A stretch of 46,355 nt of DNA from Gemmatimonadota bacterium (GTDB lineage Bacteria; ARS69), in assembly GCA_030747075.1 (NCBI GenBank), contig JASLLL010000022.1, positions 1 through 46,355 on the forward strand, read 5' to 3'. A model generated the notes under the pieces. It saw only the letters and a list, made by a program, of their open reading frames with translations, was not told the origin of the DNA and did not search any database. The translations under genes and the position numbers were made by a program. Below, piece by piece: positions 14,763 to 25,216 of this stretch (the first letter of the stretch is position 1; the number at the start of each line of letters is the position of its first letter).

Positions 14763-16300
14763 CGGAGCACCGTGATGCGGATCACCGGCCCCTCGCGTGA
14801 GGCGGCCAGGAAGTAGACGCCGCCCGGGACAGGATGCCCCCTTCGGTCGCGAAGATCCCAGAGGGCGCTGTCGGGCCCGGGCGGTGCGAGGCGACGAACC
14901 TCTCGCCCGCGGACATCGACCACGCGCAGCGTTCCAGCTTCGCGGCCTGTTCCGAGGTGAACGCGCACCGGCACTCCGCGACTGGGGTTGGGCCACGCGC
15001 GCGCCTCGGCGAGCCGTCGCGGGTTCTCCGGCGAAGCGAATGTCGCGTCATCCGCCAGGCGGCGGTAATGAATGTCAAAGTCGCCGTCGCGGTCGTCCTT
15101 CCAGAGGACTGACACGGATCCGCCGTGAGCGATCACACTCGGACGAAGCGAACGCCCGGCAGAGTCCGACACGCGGTGGTCGGCGGCACCGGTCGTATCC
15201 CACGGCGCGCCGGGTGCGCGCGACCGGAGGAATACCTCTCGATTGAAGAGGGACACCCGTGCGTCGCTCCAGACGAGATGCATCGCCTGATCCGGCCCCC
15301 GGGCAAGGGACGGCTCGTCCGCGCCGTCCGCCGGGCGCGTGATCCGTTCCTCGGCGGACCAGCTCCCGCCGGGGGAGCGCACGCGGACGAAGAGGGCGCG
15401 ACCGCCATCCCGAGAGTCCGGCCAGACGACATGGGCCGAACCGTCCGTCGCGCAACCGAGAGCGGGGGCCCCGCCGACGGCTCCGGCCGTGTCCACCGTG
15501 TCCGGCGTCGTCCATGCCCCGGTTGCGGGATCGCGGAGTGCGTGAAGGATTCTCGCGCCGCCGTCCACGCTTCGCCAGACGGCGTGCAGGGTCCCGTCGG
15601 GAGCGGCGTCGGCAGCCACCAGTTCCGAAAGCGCGGAATCGGCGGTGATGCGGTCATCCGGAGCATCTCCCGCCGAGAGATCCCAGGCCGCTCCCGCACC
15701 TCGCGACCGGGCCAGGATCTCCGCGAAGTTCCCGTCAAAGCGGAAGTCGTACCACAGCACATGCAGCGCCCCGCTTTCCGCCACCACGGGAACGGGGACA
15801 TACCCGTTGTCTCCGTTGGTCTCGGGGTGGTCGGAAGTCGTGAATCGAATGTCGGCGGCGGGAGAGGCGTCCCAGCCACTACCGGGGGAGCGGGTCTTCG
15901 TGAAGATCTCGACATTCTGGATCCCGGCGACCCGGTAGTCGTGCCAGAAAAGGTGCAGATCCCCGTCGGGTGTCGCGGCCAGCGCCGGGTACTTGGCCCC
16001 GGCGAGCGCGCCGGGATACGCCTCCAGATAGTCCACGACGAGTTCAGCAGGTGTCCACTGACCCGACGAACATTGTCGGGAGTAGATGCGGTAGTTCTGG
16101 TTCGGGCCGTCGCGCTCCGCCCAGACGACATGGAGAGCCCCGTCGTCGGTCACCGCCATTGCGGCATGGTTCAGCCCGGTTTCGGAATCGGTGGCGGTGT
16201 CGGAGAGGTTTCGCTCCGCGGTCCAGTAGCCGCCCGCGTCCGCGGTCCAGACGCCCGCAAAGAGCGCGATGCTTGAGAGCACTCCCAGGAGCCGGGTCAT
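14759..16300 (-). CDS. Secreted BNR/sialidase-like propeller with FlgD-type sorting tail
   Basis: 513 residues with a signal peptide (MTRLLGVLSSIALFAGVWTADA). Repeated units read 'DG.LH.VW.D.R', for example GALHVVWAERD, GDLHLFWHDYR and GALHVLWYDFR. They are typical of BNR/exo-sialidase-like six-blade propellers, but no sialidase catalytic Arg triad or Asp box is obvious. The last roughly 80 residues are a FlgD-like Ig domain, starting AWPNPSRG and ending with a 'GGVYFL' strand and a basic tip, the surface-anchoring tail used in this lineage. Its ATG overlaps the TonB-receptor stop by four bases, and its own stop overlaps the next start, so it is translationally coupled in the B12 operon. Confidence 0.78.
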   Translation of the reverse strand: MTRLLGVLSSIALFAGVWTADAGGYWTAERNLSDTATDSETGLNHAAMAVTDDGALHVVWAERDGPNQNYRIYSRQCSSGQWTPAELVVDYLEAYPGALAGAKYPALAATPDGDLHLFWHDYRVAGIQNVEIFTKTRSPGSGWDASPAADIRFTTSDHPETNGDNGYVPVPVVAESGALHVLWYDFRFDGNFAEILARSRGAGAAWDLSAGDAPDDRITADSALSELVAADAAPDGTLHAVWRSVDGGARILHALRDPATGAWTTPDTVDTAGAVGGAPALGCATDGSAHVVWPDSRDGGRALFVRVRSPGGSWSAEERITRPADGADEPSLARGPDQAMHLVWSDARVSLFNREVFLRSRAPGAPWDTTGAADHRVSDSAGRSLRPSVIAHGGSVSVLWKDDRDGDFDIHYRRLADDATFASPENPRRLAEARAWPNPSRGVPVRVHLGTGREAGTLRVVDVRGREVRRLAPPGPDSALWDLRDRRGHPVPGGVYFLAASREGPVIRITVLR

Positions 16301-18204
16301 GGCGTTCGCCCCCAGGTCAGTCCCGCCGAGAAGGACCGCCCCGGCAGCGGGTACTGGCGAAGGTCGCGGGCGTCGCGATCGGTCAGATTCGTGACGGAGA
16401 GGACTGCGCGAAGATCGGGGCGCACAGGAATGCGAAGGTGCAGGTCACCGAGAAGGCGCCCGCCGAGGGCCTTTGTGTTCGATCGGGTCAGGAAGACGCG
16501 ATTCACCCCACGCCATACCGTCTCGATCTCCCCGAGGCTCGCATGCCGGACGATGACACCGGCGGACCCGCTCCAGGGAGCGCGGTGGGGGAGTTCCATT
16601 CCGTGGGTGTTGGGCTCCCCGGTTCGGTCGCGGGCGTCCAGTCTCGTCACGGTGCCGGAGAGCGTGGCGGACAGCGAATGCCCCAGCGGAAACGCGGCGG
16701 CTGCTTCCGCCTCCCATCCGAAGATCCGTGCGCGGCCGATGTTGTGCGGTCGCCAGATTCCCGCAGCCCCCGGGGTCCACTGGATGAGGTCGTGGATGTC
16801 GCGGAGAAAGGCGTGCGCTTCCAGACGGGCGCCGCCGGGGAGGCGCGAGAGAAGGACTCCGGCGTCGAGGTCGCGACCCGTCTCCGGGCGCAACCCGGGG
16901 TTCCCGGCAGCCGTGGCCCGGGCGGGCCAGAACAGATCGTCGAAGGAAGGCGCGCGACGGGAGAGTCCTGCCGACGCACTGAGTACGGCGCGGCGGGGGA
17001 GAAGCTCCCACGACACACCGGCTCGCGGGGCCACGGTCGGCGCGAATCCTTCGATGGCATCGACGCGGAGGGCGGCGGTCGCAGTGAGGTCGCGGCCGAG
17101 GAGACGGCCCCGGGAACCCGCACGAAGCGATGCATACCCAAGGACGCGCCGCCGATCGCCGTCTGTCGTGCTGAGGAGATGGTCCAGGCTCGCTCCCGTG
17201 GAGGCCACGAGCGCCACCGGTCCGGCTTGCGCCGGGAAGCGTGCGTCACCCGCGAATCTCGCATTTCGGTGGCGGTCGTCCACCGGCCCGAACGCGGCTC
17301 CCGGTTCGCGGTAGGTGCGTTCCGCACGGAACCACGAGAGATCCACGAACGCGTCTCCGTCCGGCGTGTCGCTGGTTTCGATGCGAAGCGCGCCCGAGAT
17401 CCGCGAGTCCCGCAGCCTGGCCGTGGGGGAGGGGAACTCGTCGCTTCCGGGGACGCCGCGCTCCGCGAGGAAGGCGGAGAGGTTCACGCGTGCAGCGTGG
17501 CCGCCCACGGCGAGGTCGGTGCGAAGGTCGGCCTCGGTGCGCGAGATGTCGCCGTTCGTGGAACTGCCGGAAGGCGCGTACGAGTCGGACGCGGCGAACA
17601 AGCTCGCGCCGACGCGTGTGCGCGTGCCCCACGGCGTGCGTTTCGAGAGCCAGCCCGCCACGCGCTGCTCTCCGCGGGACCCTCCGCTCGCGCGGAATCC
17701 GGCGGCCCCGGGGCGCACTTCGCGAGTGCGGACATGGACCACGCCAGCGAGGGCGTCCGTGCCCCAGAGCGCGGACGCGCCTCCGCGGAGAACCTCCACG
17801 CGGGACACGAAATCGAGTGGAAGGGACGAGAGATCCGCGCCGCCACCCTGAGCAGTACTCCACCGTCGCCCGTCCACGAGAACCAGCACCTGTTCGGTCG
17901 ATGAACCGCGAATGGATGCTCCCGTTCCGGTTCCCGGCCCCGCGATGGAAGCGATGCGCACTCCGGCGAGCGAGGCGAGCAGTTCGCCGACATCCCCGCC
18001 CGGGCGCCGGTCGATGGCCGCGTCGCCGACGATGCTTCGCGGGATGGGAACCGCCTCGGCGGGCCATTCGTCGGCGCGAATGACCACCGGAGGCAGGCGC
18101 CATTCCCGCGGGGGAGGCGTCGGCGCGGGCGGGTCGGTCCCGGTCGCCGCAGCTGGAAGGAGCGCCAGCAGCAGTGCGCCCGGGAGGAGGGGGCGAAGGT
18201 TCAT
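16297..18204 (-). CDS. btuB: TonB-dependent outer-membrane receptor, BtuB-like (corrinoid uptake)
   Basis: 635 residues from ATG 18204, close to the usual BtuB length of about 610. A signal peptide is followed by a TonB-box-like PPVVIRAD. The plug (about 55-160) has the usual signatures GASIRGSSTEQVLVLVDG and VEVLRGGASALWGTDALAGVV. A 22-strand barrel with long loops fills the rest, ending 'GRSFSAGLTWGR'. It lies two bases after the stop of the propeller gene and under a cobalamin riboswitch, so corrinoid import across the outer membrane is the best reading. The energiser (TonB/ExbBD) and the inner-membrane ABC transporter BtuCDF are not in the window. Confidence 0.88.
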   Translation of the reverse strand: MNLRPLLPGALLLALLPAAATGTDPPAPTPPPREWRLPPVVIRADEWPAEAVPIPRSIVGDAAIDRRPGGDVGELLASLAGVRIASIAGPGTGTGASIRGSSTEQVLVLVDGRRWSTAQGGGADLSSLPLDFVSRVEVLRGGASALWGTDALAGVVHVRTREVRPGAAGFRASGGSRGEQRVAGWLSKRTPWGTRTRVGASLFAASDSYAPSGSSTNGDISRTEADLRTDLAVGGHAARVNLSAFLAERGVPGSDEFPSPTARLRDSRISGALRIETSDTPDGDAFVDLSWFRAERTYREPGAAFGPVDDRHRNARFAGDARFPAQAGPVALVASTGASLDHLLSTTDGDRRRVLGYASLRAGSRGRLLGRDLTATAALRVDAIEGFAPTVAPRAGVSWELLPRRAVLSASAGLSRRAPSFDDLFWPARATAAGNPGLRPETGRDLDAGVLLSRLPGGARLEAHAFLRDIHDLIQWTPGAAGIWRPHNIGRARIFGWEAEAAAAFPLGHSLSATLSGTVTRLDARDRTGEPNTHGMELPHRAPWSGSAGVIVRHASLGEIETVWRGVNRVFLTRSNTKALGGRLLGDLHLRIPVRPDLRAVLSVTNLTDRDARDLRQYPLPGRSFSAGLTWGRTP

Positions 18205-18206
18205 GG

Positions 18207-19820
18207 CTACCGGACCCGGAGGATGCGTCGGCAGACGGACTCGCCCGCGGCGCGAACCCGGGTGAAGTACACTCCCGGTGCGGCATCTTCGCCGGCGTCG
18301 GTGCGGCCGTCCCAGGTGACGCGGGACCCGCCCGCGGGAAGGCGTCCCGGCCGGAGTTCGGCGACGCTTCGTCCCGAGACATCGAACAGTGTCACGGTGG
18401 CCTCGGCCTCGTTCGGAAGCGAAAGCTCGAGCGTCACCGTTGTGCGAAACGGTTGCGGGAAGGCGCGTCCCACGGCGAGAGTCGGGGCCGCGGGCGCACT
18501 CCGAACAAGGGTCACCGGCGGGAGGAAAGTCAGATCTCCCGCGGAATGGATCCAGCCGACGCGGTAGGTGTACGAGTATCCGTCGCGCGTTGCGGCATCG
18601 GTCCACTCGGACACTTCGGCGAACGGGAGATTCGTGGCGACCGGAGAGAAGATCGTGTTGGCGGGACCCTGCCGATCGATGGCAAAGCCCGCGACCCCTG
18701 CGTACGGACTGGCGGTCCACGAGAGCCGGATTCCGTCCGGGGCGTTCCATGCACTCGGAGGGCGCATCGCCAGGCCCACCGATGCGTCGGTCTCCACCAC
18801 GGCGAGGTCGATCGGGCCGTCGTTGACCGCCCACGCGTGCAGGCTGTCGGGTGCGGAGTGGTCCAGTCGATAGAGCAGATCCGCACCGAAGTCGGGCACG
18901 AGAAGGTGGCCGTCCGGGTCGAGGCGCGGGTTGCCGTAGAATCCGCCACCAGGGATCAGCGGATCGTCCGGGCCGTGAAGAAGCGTGAGCGTGTTCGCGT
19001 TGTAGGACCAGATCTCGGAAGCGAAGGAAGGCGTGGTGATGCTGAGCCAGCCGAGACCGGTCGTGTCGATGGCACCGCCCCCGGGGAAGGCCGGGATGGG
19101 AAGCGTGTCCAGCGGGGCCAGTCCTACCGGGTCCACCACATGGATCTCACCGGTCGTGAGGAAGAAGTCGCCGGTACAGATCACATGGACCGTGCCATCC
19201 GGGGCGGGCAGACAGGCTTGCGGGTTGGTGCCGACCGGGATCGTGGCCACGACAGAGAGGCCTGCGGGGTCGAGGACGGTGACGGTTCCGGGATCGTAGG
19301 CGTAGGTCGTGAAGTCGAAGCCGGTGTTTGCGACAAAGAGCCACCCGCCCGCGCGACACATTCCCTCCGGACTCTTGCCGACCGCAGCCGTATCGGTGAC
19401 GGCACCGGTCCACGGGTGGACCTCGTACACGGCGTTTGCGCCCAGTGCCGAGACGAACGCGGACTCCCCGGGAAACTCAACGGCCCACGGATTGGATCCT
19501 GCGGGGAGCGAAGTGGTGGTGAGCGTGGACTGGGTGAGCAGATCGAACAGCGTGAGGTCTCCTGAAGAGGAGTTGACCACAAGCAGTGCCGATTCATCGT
19601 CGGAGAGTTCGACGCGGTTGGCGCCGGAGCCCACCGAAGCGATGGCGTTCACCACACTTCCCGAATCGAGATCGACGCGGGTGATCGTGGCATCGTTGGA
19701 GCCAATCACATAGGCGGCATTCGCGGGCGGCGCGGCGTCAGCAGACCCGGACGAAACGGGGGCGGCAAGGAGCATGGCAAGCAGCATCGACAAGCGTGAA
19801 TGCGTCAGCGTCTTCCACAT
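18207..19820 (-). CDS. Secreted YVTN beta-propeller + FN3-like + FlgD sorting domain
   Basis: 537 residues from ATG 19820, chosen because GGAG lies about ten bases upstream and a signal peptide (ending SSGSADA) starts there; the frame extends to 19880 without support. A seven-blade YVTN-type propeller covers about 30-330 (NAAYVIGSNDATITRVDLDSG marks the first blade). An FN3-like module follows (about 345-430, IRLSWTASPYAGVAGF), then a FlgD-like Ig/sorting tail ending 'GVYFTRVRAAGESVCRRILRVR'. It is the first gene after the cobalamin riboswitch and a paralogue of the lipoprotein at the operon's end, so it may be a corrinoid-capture protein displayed on the surface by the sorting tail rather than by lipid. 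Confidence 0.8.
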   Translation of the reverse strand: MWKTLTHSRLSMLLAMLLAAPVSSGSADAAPPANAAYVIGSNDATITRVDLDSGSVVNAIASVGSGANRVELSDDESALLVVNSSSGDLTLFDLLTQSTLTTTSLPAGSNPWAVEFPGESAFVSALGANAVYEVHPWTGAVTDTAAVGKSPEGMCRAGGWLFVANTGFDFTTYAYDPGTVTVLDPAGLSVVATIPVGTNPQACLPAPDGTVHVICTGDFFLTTGEIHVVDPVGLAPLDTLPIPAFPGGGAIDTTGLGWLSITTPSFASEIWSYNANTLTLLHGPDDPLIPGGGFYGNPRLDPDGHLLVPDFGADLLYRLDHSAPDSLHAWAVNDGPIDLAVVETDASVGLAMRPPSAWNAPDGIRLSWTASPYAGVAGFAIDRQGPANTIFSPVATNLPFAEVSEWTDAATRDGYSYTYRVGWIHSAGDLTFLPPVTLVRSAPAAPTLAVGRAFPQPFRTTVTLELSLPNEAEATVTLFDVSGRSVAELRPGRLPAGGSRVTWDGRTDAGEDAAPGVYFTRVRAAGESVCRRILRVR

Positions 19821-19977
19821 GATGAGAGTCTCCGGAAGCGGGATGGAAACTCGGCGGCCGATCCGCACTGGGCTTCGCATACGGAGACATCGTCCGCCGG
19901 TTGGCGGAACCCCGAAGCCGAAGTGTTGACAAGGATCGGAATCACCGGCCTCACCCTCGAAGGCGGTCCACGAAAGT

Positions 19978-20113
19978 GTTCGGGTCGGTCTCCTGGCTCG
20001 CGGGTCTTCCTCGCTCCGCGCCTTCCGGTTTCCCGTGGCATGAATGCGGAGGTTGTCGCCGCTTACAGTGGCGGGGCCGCGCCGGCGTTGAACCGGCTTC
20101 CCTTTACCCGAAC
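19978..20113 (-). promoter_or_regulatory. Cobalamin (adenosylcobalamin-type) riboswitch
   Basis: Read on the minus strand, the element has the hallmark pieces in order. These are AAAGGGAAGCCGGT near the 5' end, CGCGGCCCCGCCACTGTAAG (the conserved GCCACTG-type core), ATGCCAC, GGAAGGCGC and AGCCAGGAGACC. The closing helix P1 is an exact 8-bp pair: GTTCGGGT (20113-20106) with ACCCGAAC (19985-19978). The start codon of the first operon gene is 158 bases downstream. That leader includes the hairpin CCGCC-AACC-GGCGG, which could be part of the expression platform. The expected behaviour is repression of the whole 19.8-13.7 kb operon when corrinoid is plentiful. The segment 20114-20285 holds a possible minus-strand -35 (TTGACC, near 20184-20189) and the leader of the divergent cytochrome gene. 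Confidence 0.95.
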
Positions 20114-20285
20114 GCGATGGTCATGACAACCGCCCCTTGCGGAAACGACTGCCACGACCGATAGAATCATGCGGGGGAGGCAGGGTCAAGGTGGCGATTC
20201 CCCGAAGGAGAGCAGAGTGGTAGGATTCCACCATTGGCAAATGACGCACGGCCGTTTGGCGGCCGATGACCCGAAGGAGCGTTCC

Positions 20286-21740
20286 TTGTCCCGACTTGCG
20301 AAGCGCTTGGTGCTGGCGGTACTTGTGTGGATCCCGATCGCGGTGGTTCTGACCGCGCTTCCGGCAAGTGGCGGAGACTCCGAGGAGTCTGCCGGTTCTG
20401 TAGCCCTTCCCGCCACCGCGGCGGGAGTGGACAGCCTTCTCCACGAGATGGAAGAAGACTCCCACGATCTCTTCTTTGGTCCTTTCGGACCCGACCTCCT
20501 CCTCGTCTCCACGACGGATGGGCGCGGAGAAACCGCCCCCTGCGGGTGAGGCAAGAGCCCCCGGGGGGGACTGGCCCGGCGGGCCGGTTATCTTGCAGAG
20601 ATGAGAGCGAAGTACGAGAGTGTTCTCCTTGTGGACGCGGGCGATATCGCCGGGCACCAGAAGCCGACCGCGCTTCCTCGCGCGCTCTTTCTGATCGAGG
20701 CGTTTGCCCGCATGGGATACGACGCCGCCACACTCGGACCGGCGGACCTGGAACTGCCGCGGGAAGTGGTGCTGCCCGTGATTCAGGAAGCGCCCTTTCC
20801 CATTCTGTCCGCCAACCTGCTCGACACCGTGACCGGGGAAGGAATCCTGCCGCATTCGGTCGTGCTGGAAAGAGGGGACTTGCGCATCGGGGTCACCGCG
20901 GTGCTGTCTCCGACGACCGTGGAGCCGAGTGTTCTCGCCGGGTTTGGCGTGGTGGCGGAAGACCCGGAAGAGGTGCTCCGTGAGCTTCTCCCCGAGCTTC
21001 GGGAAAAGTGCGATGTGGTGGTCCTCCTGTGCCGCTCGACCATTGCCCAGGCGCGCGTCCTTGCGGAGTCGCTGGATGGATGGATTGATGTGCTGGTCCT
21101 CGGAAGCGGCTCGCCCGGTTACGGCACCGTGCTCCCCGCGGAGGGAGGTGCGCTCTATCTGGTGTCCGGATCGCGGGGACGCAGCGTGGGCGTGGCGCGC
21201 CTTGAACTTCGCGGAGGCCATGTGTCACGGGCGATGGGCGAGTTCGTCTCGCTGAGCCAGGGTCTTCCGGAAGATGAGGAGATGGCCGGCTTCGTGGAGG
21301 AGTTCCATATTCGCCTGAACGAGATTGTCCGCAGCACTTTTATGGCGGACGCCATGGAACTGCGCAGGCACGGGGACGAGTACTACATGGGCGCGGACTC
21401 CTGCCGCCCGTGTCACCGTCCCGAGTTCCTGAGCTGGAAGCAGACCGGCCATGCCAGCGCGTTCGAGACGCTGGTGGAGGAGCACTCCGACGCCCTCCCC
21501 GAGTGCGTCGCGTGTCATGTAGTCGGGGCGGGAGAGGCAGCCGGATACAACCCGAGGGTGAAGGGGTTGTCGGAACTCGTGAATGTTCAGTGCGAGGTCT
21601 GCCACGGTCCCGGCAGCGAACACTCCCGCGACGGCACCTACGGAGACGGGCTTGGGGAAAAGGGATGCACGATATGCCACGATGCCGACAACAGCCCGGA
21701 CTTCGATCTGGAGACCTACTGGCCGAAGATCGCGCACTGA
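20286..21740 (+). CDS. Candidate selenoprotein: metallophosphoesterase-like domain + tetraheme cytochrome c (TGA = Sec)
   Basis: A conceptual 484-residue protein read through one in-frame TGA at 20547-20549 (residue 88). Start TTG 20286 has AAGGAG seven bases upstream and gives a signal peptide (MSRLAKRLVLAVLVWIPIAVV). GTG 20217, with its own GAAGGAG, is an alternative. The codons before and after the TGA are in one frame and read TAPCG-U-GKSPRGGLARRAGYL. In the UshA-like multiheme family the same place reads PCGC, then GGLxRRA, so the TGA sits on the second cysteine. The N-terminal domain keeps the fold (LLVDAGDI, PILSANLL, GVTAVLSP) but lacks the usual Asn-His metal ligands. Four CxxCH heme sites follow at residues 373, 407, 436 and 461. 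It is exported and probably periplasmic. The alternative is a nonsense mutation of a TGC/TGT codon. Confidence 0.75.
20551..20596 (+). promoter_or_regulatory. Bacterial SECIS-like hairpin immediately after the TGA
   Basis: One base after the TGA, GCAAGA (20551-20556) pairs exactly with TCTTGC (20591-20596). Inside it, ACTGGCCC (20570-20577) pairs with GGGCCGGT (20581-20588, one U-G wobble) around the apical loop GGC (20578-20580). The loop lies 28 bases after the TGA and begins with G. This fits the published bacterial SECIS rules (apical loop about 16-37 nt from UGA, a G among its first two bases). A competing CCCC/GGGG hairpin (20558-20569) is possible. The element lies inside the coding frame, as bacterial SECIS elements do. 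Confidence 0.6.
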
Positions 21741-21754
21741 CCGAGCGGGTCAGT
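21736..21754. terminator. Palindrome spanning both stop codons of convergent genes
   Basis: ACTGACC and GGTCAGT form a perfect 7-bp stem around GAGCG. The TGA of the cytochrome gene (21738-21740) and the reverse-strand TGA of the sulfatase-like gene (21750-21752) both lie within it. It is probably a compact bidirectional terminator, although no T-tract follows on either side. Confidence 0.5.
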
Positions 21755-23690
21755 CGCCGACATAGCCCAGGCTTTCCATGCGCTGACGGAGCTCGTCGTC
21801 GATCGTGCGTGTCCCCGCATCGGTGACTCGGGAATCGCCCAGCCGGACCCACGCATTCAGGATTTCCACAAGGTCCGCCAGCTCACGGGGTCGTTCCCCG
21901 GAGAGATCGTGGAGCTCGCCGGGATCGAGGCGAAGGTCGAACAGTTCCATGCGGGGTTTCTCCGCTCCCGGTGTCCGGACGAGCTTCCACCCGTCACGGA
22001 TGACGAAGCGCTGCTTCGCGCGATTGGCACTGGCCTCCCAGTCCTCTCGCCAGTTCCCGGCCAGATCCGGATCCTGCGCGATCTCCTTCGGGATGTTCGA
22101 GTCGATCCGGTCGTTCAGGTGCGGGAACCGACAGAACCCGGACTCTCCGAAGCGAATCCGCGACGCGTCGGCAAGCGGAACCGCGCCGGAGTTCTCGCGC
22201 GGAAGGTCCACAGCCTCTTCGACAAGCGGGAAGAGATCGGTGAGGCCGGTCGCGGCCGCGGGGGGGACATCTCCGGGCGGGTAGTCAAAGCCTGCGAGAA
22301 TGAGCGGAATGTCGGTAGCCGGGCCGTAGACGAAGTCGCCGTGGTTGAAGTGATACCCGTGTTCGTTCAGGCTCTCCCCATGATCCGAGGTGGCGATGAT
22401 CCGCGTGTTCTGAAGCCACCCCGATTCCTCCATGGTCTTGAGAAGGCGACCGAGCGCGCGGTCCGCCGTGGCCACTTCGGCGTCGTAGAGGCGACGAGCA
22501 TGGGCGCGAGTCCGGGCGGAGAGTGGATTCCGGTAGGTCATTTCCCCCTTCCCGATCCGGTGGTAGTCGAAGGCGTCGCGATACTCCCCCTCGTAACCGG
22601 GATCGAAGCGTCGCGCATAGACTCGCGGGGGATCGTAAGGCATGTGGGGTGCGAGCCAGTGAACCCACAGGAAGAACGGTTGGTCTGCGGGGCGAGCGCG
22701 AAGCCACGCAATCGCGCGATCGGTGATGACTTCGGCGCGTTCGCGGTGGCGCATGGCGGCCAGCGTCAGGAGCCGGAGGAGGCCGCGTTGCGGGGAGAGG
22801 CGTGACCAGTCGTCGCCGCGGTCATCGGCCACCGTGAACCCCCGGTAAATGCCGCTGTCGTGGGAGAGCACCGGGTTGGAGTTGACGGCAGCGGTCGCCC
22901 ATCCGGCTTCACGGAATCGGGACGCCAGCGTGGGACGCGCGTCGCCCAGCGTGTAGTGGAAGTTGTCGCGCACCCCGTGGTCGTGCGGATAGGCGGCGGT
23001 CATGAGCGATGCGATGGCGGGAAGTGTTCGCGGAAGCGGCGTCACCGCCCGGGCGAAACGGACCCCGCCGCGTGCAAGCCGGTCGAGGTGCGGACTCGTG
23101 GGGGAGGGGTGCCCCGCGTATCCGAGACGGTCGGCCCGGAGAGTGTCGATGGTGAGAAGGAGGACGCTGGGTCGGTCGCCGGGGATCACGCCTTGCGGGC
23201 GTATCGGGATGAGGGCGGGCAGAACGAGAAGGAACGCGATCAAGGCGTCCGAGAGGCGCGGCCGCCGAGTCGGGAGGGCGCGGCCGATCAGCACGCCGAG
23301 TCCCTGCCCGAGGATGAGTCCGGTCAGAGCGGAGAGGACCGCGCGTCCGGCGAGGGCGACCGGCGCGACTTCCCCGAGGAGGGTGGAACCGGAGACGGAG
23401 TTCAGCCAGAGTGCCCCGCCCGCCCCGGCTCCCAGTACGGTTCCAAATGGAGAGAGGCGGCCGACTCGGGGGATCTTCGGCAGGCAGGCCACGACGATGC
23501 CTGCCATGGCACCGACGAGCGCCAGTTCGGAGAAGTCGCGCACGGGCCGGGAGAGCGCGGGTCCCGCGCCCAGTCGGACGCAGAGGTCGGGGACGCCGAT
23601 CAGGAGCAGTCCGGCCGCCCCGCGAAGCGCACTGCCCGCGAGGCGGTGGCGAAGCGTGGGATCCCCCCGGCCTTCGGGGGATGCCGTCAC
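21750..23690 (-). CDS. Membrane sulfatase / alkaline-phosphatase-superfamily enzyme
   Basis: 646 residues from GTG 23690, which overlaps the stop of the beta-helix gene (GTGA). About five hydrophobic helices occupy residues 15-175, then a periplasmic hydrolase domain begins with the metal-binding strand LLLTIDTLRADRLGYAG and closes with ATSDHGESLNEHGYHFNHG. Where sulfatases have the formylglycine motif CxPSR, this protein reads TLPAI, so Thr is the likely nucleophile. That favours a phosphodiesterase or phosphotransferase (EptA/LtaS-like chemistry) over a true sulfatase. It likely acts on an envelope polymer or lipid. The genome neighbour is a surface beta-helix protein in the same transcript. 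Confidence 0.82.
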   Translation of the reverse strand: MTASPEGRGDPTLRHRLAGSALRGAAGLLLIGVPDLCVRLGAGPALSRPVRDFSELALVGAMAGIVVACLPKIPRVGRLSPFGTVLGAGAGGALWLNSVSGSTLLGEVAPVALAGRAVLSALTGLILGQGLGVLIGRALPTRRPRLSDALIAFLLVLPALIPIRPQGVIPGDRPSVLLLTIDTLRADRLGYAGHPSPTSPHLDRLARGGVRFARAVTPLPRTLPAIASLMTAAYPHDHGVRDNFHYTLGDARPTLASRFREAGWATAAVNSNPVLSHDSGIYRGFTVADDRGDDWSRLSPQRGLLRLLTLAAMRHRERAEVITDRAIAWLRARPADQPFFLWVHWLAPHMPYDPPRVYARRFDPGYEGEYRDAFDYHRIGKGEMTYRNPLSARTRAHARRLYDAEVATADRALGRLLKTMEESGWLQNTRIIATSDHGESLNEHGYHFNHGDFVYGPATDIPLILAGFDYPPGDVPPAAATGLTDLFPLVEEAVDLPRENSGAVPLADASRIRFGESGFCRFPHLNDRIDSNIPKEIAQDPDLAGNWREDWEASANRAKQRFVIRDGWKLVRTPGAEKPRMELFDLRLDPGELHDLSGERPRELADLVEILNAWVRLGDSRVTDAGTRTIDDELRQRMESLGYVGD

Positions 23691-25216
23691 CGGTAGAGGG
23701 CCTTGACGCGTCCCCAGCTGGCCGGAGCGAGGGAGGTCGTCCCGCAGGCGTCGGCGGCGTCGTGGGCTCCCATGTCCGAACCGTCGAGTCCTGCGCCCAG
23801 ACACGGAGAAGACGCGGCGAGCGCCAGGTCTGCAGGGAGCGCGGAGGCATCGCAATACTCGGGGTCCGCGCGGATGTTCCCGGCAATCCCCGTTCGGTCT
23901 TCGCAGGTGCCCCCGTATCCATCGTCCGGGTTGGCGGGGTCGTTGTAGACATCGTTGTAGTGGAACACGGGATTCGCGGAAGCACCCCCGCAGGAGAATC
24001 CGGCGCCTGCGAGCGTCCCGGCGATGATGTTGTTTCGAATGGTCCCGATGGACTGCCCGGTGACATGGATCCCGCCGCCGGTGCCGACAGTGGTGTTTGC
24101 CGAGAAAGAGTTGTCCTCCACGGAGTAGAAGGCAAAGCTCCCCGTGGACGGCCCCTCCAGGAGGAGCCCGCCTCCGTTGGCTGCCGAGTTTCCGGCGATG
24201 TCCGTTCCGCGGACTTCGTCCGCCATGCTGTAGGCCAGGTGAATCCCGCCGCCGTCGCCCGTGGCGGTATTGTTCAGGATGGACCCGTTCAGGAAGCGAT
24301 TGGATCCATCGGTAGAGGCCAGACCTCCGCCGTTGATGCCCGCCGTGTTCCCATCGAGAATGCAGTGCTGATGAACGCTGGTTCCGCCATCCAGATAGAT
24401 CCCGCCCCCATTCTCGGTGGCCTGATTCGCCGTGATCTCGTTCCACCATCCGGCCAGCCCTGTATCCATCAGCATGATTCCGCCGCCGTGCCGCCCGGAG
24501 AAGTTCCCGTCCACGAGGTTCCGCTCGAAGAGAATGGCGGATCGGGAGAAGAACCCGCCCCCGCCGGATATGGTGGAAGCGGCGGAAGGGTCTGCCGAGT
24601 TGGAGAGGATGGAGCAGTCGGAGACGACCGCGTCCTCTGAGTCGATTGCGACGGAGATGCCTCCTCCGCGAAGGCCGGCGATGTTGTCCTGGATGGTGCA
24701 CTGGGTCACGCGTGCCGCAGAGCCGGAGATCTGGATGCCGCCGCCGTTCTGGCTGGCGTAGTTGTCGCGGACGATGCAGAGCGAAATCTCCAGCGCAGTT
24801 CCCGTGCCGCAAAAGATGCCGCCGCCCAGGACCGTGTCGCCTCCGGTGATGGTGAAACCCTCCAGCCGTGTGGCCGCTCCGGCGGTGCCAGCCTCCACGA
24901 CGCTGCCGGTTGTGCTGTCCGGGAGCTGGATCACGGTCTCATGCGAGGAAGGATCGAAGGAGGTGAAGGTGGCGTCATAGCCCCCCCGAAGCACCACGCC
25001 GTCGACCAGGAATATCTGTTCCTCGTAAGGAGACCCGGCGTCGGAGACATGAACTTCGTCCCCCGGAGTCGCTGCGGCCAAGGCCGTCGAGATGGACGAG
25101 TGATGGTCGGGGACCAGGATGACCGCCGCGGACGACGGCAGCGCGACGGAGAGCAGCAGACAGAGCGCGCCGCAGAGCAAACGGGGGTCTCCAGTGACAC
25201 AGCGACGGAGGGCCAT
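23687..25216 (-). CDS. Secreted right-handed beta-helix (polymorphic repeat) surface protein
   Basis: 509 residues from ATG 25216, which has GGGAGG about ten bases upstream; the frame runs to 25261 without a ribosome site. The signal peptide ends SVALPSSA. The mature part opens with the PSSISTALAAATPGDEVHV-like cap typical of pectin-lyase-fold proteins. Many turns follow of the form 'NxA..GGGI.....' (NGGGIQISG, LRGGGISV, RHGGGIMLM, ENGGGIYLDGG, GINGGGLAS), as in polymorphic outer-membrane/right-handed beta-helix repeats. The last segment (GLDGSDMGAHDAADACG) resembles the common end cap of this family. No catalytic motif is evident; surface binding or adhesion is an inference. Confidence 0.8.
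   Translation of the reverse strand: MALRRCVTGDPRLLCGALCLLLSVALPSSAAVILVPDHHSSISTALAAATPGDEVHVSDAGSPYEEQIFLVDGVVLRGGYDATFTSFDPSSHETVIQLPDSTTGSVVEAGTAGAATRLEGFTITGGDTVLGGGIFCGTGTALEISLCIVRDNYASQNGGGIQISGSAARVTQCTIQDNIAGLRGGGISVAIDSEDAVVSDCSILSNSADPSAASTISGGGGFFSRSAILFERNLVDGNFSGRHGGGIMLMDTGLAGWWNEITANQATENGGGIYLDGGTSVHQHCILDGNTAGINGGGLASTDGSNRFLNGSILNNTATGDGGGIHLAYSMADEVRGTDIAGNSAANGGGLLLEGPSTGSFAFYSVEDNSFSANTTVGTGGGIHVTGQSIGTIRNNIIAGTLAGAGFSCGGASANPVFHYNDVYNDPANPDDGYGGTCEDRTGIAGNIRADPEYCDASALPADLALAASSPCLGAGLDGSDMGAHDAADACGTTSLAPASWGRVKALYR

Follow-up and report, generated by a model that had tools for sequence, protein, structure and literature searches.

UshA-like proteins of COG0737 with a CxU motif were recognised as a major selenoprotein family in the 2008 Global Ocean Sampling survey, with 76 sequences from 20 samples; cytochromes and multihemes go unmentioned in that report (PMC2398784). 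UshA-like selenoproteins appear again in catalogues of 2022 and 2026, the later of which cites the family NF041198 with CxU (PMC9312934, PMC13188914). A second UshA-like selenoprotein family, NF049981, carries a CxxU motif (PMC13188914), and the other selenocysteine-containing multiheme cytochromes of the 2026 catalogue include both ExtKL and an octaheme tetrathionate reductase family. The gene described here lies in a window of 46,355 nucleotides, the whole stretch of Gemmatimonadota contig JASLLL010000022.1 that was analysed. A preceding sequence-only reading of this window had announced a probable new selenoprotein of a type not yet described, which is wrong: NF041198 is curated, and such proteins were reported in 2008 and reviewed in 2022 and 2026. 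Because UshA-like Pro-Cys-Gly-Sec selenoproteins have been catalogued since 2008, we regard the window gene as another representative of a kind already known. To the reading that it encodes a selenoprotein of this UshA-like PCGU kind, we assign a probability of roughly 0.93.

The gene and its protein product comprise the following elements, of which the Shine-Dalgarno-like element was read in the sequence, the signal-peptide-like segment from the translation, the PCG-U motif from translation and alignment, and the heme motifs from the alignment.

20273-20279, strand +: Shine-Dalgarno-like GAAGGAG, 6 bases upstream of TTG 20286
20286-21740, strand +: UshA-like PCGU gene, very probably for a selenoprotein (484 aa, TTG start, one internal TGA)
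20286-20375, strand +: signal-peptide-like hydrophobic N-terminal segment (LSRLAKRLVLAVLVWIPIAVVLTALPASGG)
20493-21209, strand +: UshA/5'-nucleotidase-like domain of metallophosphoesterase fold (NF041198 positions 23-267; structure matched to 3ive and to E. coli UshA)
20538-20549, strand +: PCG-U motif, residues 85-88
20547-20549, strand +: in-frame TGA, very probably selenocysteine 88 (TGA shared by all 11 homologous genes; one Cys homologue carries TGC)
21402-21416, strand +: heme motif 1, CRPCH, residues 373-377
21504-21518, strand +: heme motif 2, CVACH, residues 407-411
21591-21605, strand +: heme motif 3, CEVCH, residues 436-440
21666-21680, strand +: heme motif 4, CTICH, residues 461-465

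Between the TTG and the terminal TGA (21738-21740), the TGA at 20547-20549 is the sole stop. The earlier description of two open segments in one frame, split by a single TGA, was accurate, as was the term tetraheme for the four CXXCH motifs. Read through the TGA, the protein has 484 residues and runs ...TAPCG-U-GKSPRGGLARRA..., with U at residue 88, and both flanks fit one family model, NF041198, and align with homologues. A standard gene caller would break or shorten such a gene at the TGA, and the annotation is corrected here.

To place the protein within known families, we compared it with NCBIfam, where it matched NF041198 (UshA_like_PCGU, 'UshA-like (seleno)protein') with an E-value of 6.8e-75 and 252.6 bits. 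This 519-position model has a curated equivalog cut-off of 275 bits and a multiheme tail at positions of about 347-519. When the genome was searched, model positions 23-267 aligned with the N-terminal part (20493-21209, residues 70-308, one TGA inside) and positions 347-517 with the heme tail (21222-21707). Pfam assigned the tail to Cytochrome_C554; this search of the window protein recognised the cytochrome part only and not the UshA domain. By motif, architecture and homology, the window protein is almost certainly of the same kind as NF041198. Its score lies below 275 bits, so it falls short of strict equivalog status and is therefore filed as a sister subgroup. Where scored against this model, the window gene and its orthologues reached 235-253 bits, and two relatives from the other subgroup, L035 and L038, passed the cut-off with 300.4 and 282.6 bits. 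A search of the window gene's own genome with the ExtKL family, NF040886, did not match the window gene.

The internal TGA is shared by relatives of the gene. In all 11 of the closest homologous genes fetched, from seven genomes, the column of residue 88 holds TGA; these genes are 30-45% identical, and their frame stays open before and after the TGA. Nine of them belong to other genomes, four of which are from the same family and two of which were reached through the distant homologue L039. A more distant homologue, L044, which shares its genome with L039, has ACGC at the motif and the codon TGC in this column. Across 12 aligned sequences, C86, G87, residue 88, G94, G95, R98, R99 and the four CXXCH motifs are invariant. 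A second PCGU gene with a TGA at the same place occurs in the own genome (L022/L036, contig C29, G000:C29:7392-8687) and belongs to the subgroup in which more of the metal-ligand histidines are retained; three further genomes of the family contain both a relative of this paralogue and a window-type gene. When 189 genomes from the phylum of L039 were searched, one further TGA homologue was found (E 1e-30), and patterns built from the single window protein recovered just one relative among the genome contigs. Plasmid records yielded nucleotidase-like matches only, with query cover below 80% and, among the matches listed, identity below 30%.

The decoding machinery for selenocysteine is complete in the own genome, which measures 2.67 Mb and is listed with a completeness of 100. 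We found a tRNA-Sec bearing the anticodon TCA (73 bits; gathering score, 47), a full-length selB open reading frame, selA (535.5 bits) and selD (363.9 bits), the last with its own TGA. The SelD gene, L018 (G000:C4:62873-63799), is itself a selenoprotein gene, with the in-frame TGA in the context SHCAG-U-ASKIGQ.

These observations bear on two other ways of reading the TGA at 20547-20549. Were it a genuine stop, a sequencing error or the mark of a pseudogene, the locus would yield no more than a short N-terminal fragment, the rest of the gene being unexpressed; in keeping with this, the evidence of readthrough is computational and the window comes from a single assembly. Because the same column holds TGA in 11 homologous genes of seven genomes, the codon is not there by chance, and with the frame intact on both sides and the Sec machinery complete in the own genome, a genuine stop is strongly disfavoured and very improbable. 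Alternatively, TGA might be reassigned in this lineage, or read as another amino acid such as Trp or Cys, with which the continuation of the frame past the TGA would agree. The window gene itself, however, terminates with TGA (21738-21740), internal TGA codons occur at sites of Sec or Cys in known families (PCGU, SelD), and tRNA-Sec, SelA and SelB are present, so that reassignment is scarcely credible. We conclude that TGA 20547-20549 is very probably a real selenocysteine codon and the window protein a selenoprotein. Two of the checks that the sequence-only reading had suggested came out in favour of selenocysteine, the alignment showing TGA in 11 of 11 genes and Cys (TGC) in L044, and the search for selA, selB, selC and selD finding tRNA-Sec and all three protein genes. 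Its assignment of residue 88 as the selenocysteine of a Cys-Gly-Sec motif is well supported by the machinery, the conserved TGA, the Cys homologue and a SECIS-like hairpin.

This hairpin lies shortly after the TGA.

20569-20589, strand +: putative bacterial SECIS hairpin, whose 9-bp stem closes a GGC loop (20578-20580) that starts 28 nt after the TGA

According to the published bSECIS criteria, the loop measures 3-9 nt and the upper stem 4-16 bp, loop positions 1-2 include a G, the distance from the UGA is 16-37 nt and the MFE is -7.5 or lower (PMC13188914). The window hairpin lies within all of these limits, the 30-nt stretch that bears it folding at -15.5 kcal/mol. In the window gene together with the eight relatives nearest to it, pairing over eight base pairs is found in 95.8% of cells, and covariation does not exceed that of shuffles. 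Equally stable folds arise in 5.4% of synonymous recodings of the window gene and in 1-11% of those of the eight relatives; for the distant homologues L039 and L048, 41% and 61% of recodings are as stable. In L039 and L048, a seemingly different SECIS-like hairpin, CUGG...CCAG, with the loop GGUCU about 18 nt from the TGA, occurs within 54 nt after that codon. The window hairpin is thus weakly better than the peptide alone would give. It fits selenocysteine and is not independent proof, because encoding the peptide LARRA in a GC-rich genome tends to produce such a hairpin and covariation stays within the shuffles. During translation, SelB and tRNA-Sec would decode TGA 20547 as selenocysteine, aided by the hairpin just downstream.

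A structure model computed for the window protein together with 11 homologues has a mean pLDDT of 72. The UshA domain is mostly above 90, residues 87-90 in the PCGU loop are below 50 and the heme tail is poor. Compared with the PDB, the model matches 5'-nucleotidases (3ive, CD73 and E. coli UshA) and SoxB, with a best E-value of 5.4e-20. Active 5'-nucleotidases such as UshA are expected to carry the metal ligand motifs GNHE, H and GHxH, and in the alignment with the nucleotidase 3ivd the UshA metal ligand motifs were not found in the window protein: GNHE is replaced by GPAD, IHEG by LCRS and GHAH by GSGS. Because of these replacements, nucleotidase activity of the window copy appears unlikely. 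In the sister subgroup, comprising the C29 paralogue and its relatives, His is kept at two of the ligand places (LLSHTGIE and VGHYPA).

The mature protein would be exported to the periplasm. It has a domain of 5'-nucleotidase fold, where other residues take the place of most metal ligands known from true nucleotidases, and on the same chain a cytochrome c554-like tetraheme domain follows. The Cys-Gly-Sec pair could form a reversible selenenyl-sulfide and pass electrons to or from the hemes. The anatomy of the protein makes this redox partnership reasonably likely, with the PCGU loop itself poorly modelled. If the pair does exchange electrons with the hemes, the protein would be a respiration-linked periplasmic thiol/selenol oxidoreductase, not a nucleotidase. 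The selenoprotein might instead still act as a metal-dependent phosphohydrolase or thiosulfohydrolase like UshA or SoxB, Sec then serving as ligand or nucleophile while the hemes provide an electron sink apart from it. The fold, the weak sequence similarity to SoxB (1.8e-13) and UshA, and the His retained at two ligand positions in the paralogous subgroup would suit such a hydrolase; the loss of the GNHE, IHEG and GHAH motifs from the window copy speaks against it, and we consider it unlikely. More tentatively than the redox partnership as such, we speculate that the window copy stands with its orthologues in a subgroup of its own, in which the metal site is gone and a selenol-dependent redox module feeds a tetraheme wire. 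If true, this would be a use of the UshA fold without earlier demonstration. With their unequal nucleotidase ligands, the two PCGU paralogues of the own genome offer a useful test of hydrolase-to-redox conversion.

Divergent from the PCGU gene, a cobalamin riboswitch (RF00174, 91.3 bits) lies at 19966-20126 on strand -, and downstream of it on the same strand are a FlgD_ig protein (18207-19880) and a TonB-dependent receptor (16297-18834); together they are probably a B12 uptake locus. On the other side, tail to tail with the PCGU gene, a sulfatase/phosphodiesterase-family protein of about 1000 aa is encoded at 21750-24812 on strand -.

To our knowledge, E. coli UshA and SoxB have neither hemes nor selenocysteine; they have a fold in common with the N-terminal domain of the window protein, in which their metal ligand motifs are largely gone. 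NF049981 is related to it in the N-terminal region (5.1e-16) and is a shorter model, against which the window protein scores 58.9 bits with a cut-off of 140. The likeness to the ExtKL type (NF040886) is that of a multiheme c-type cytochrome with selenocysteine (PMC13188914). The COG0737 CxU proteins of 2008 are UshA-like and, as in the window protein, have Sec as the second residue of the redox motif (PMC2398784). NF041198 and the window protein both combine on one chain a PCGU motif with GGLARRA after it, a UshA-like domain and a multiheme C-terminal tail; compared with NF041198 proper, the subgroup of the window protein has more of its metal-ligand positions replaced.
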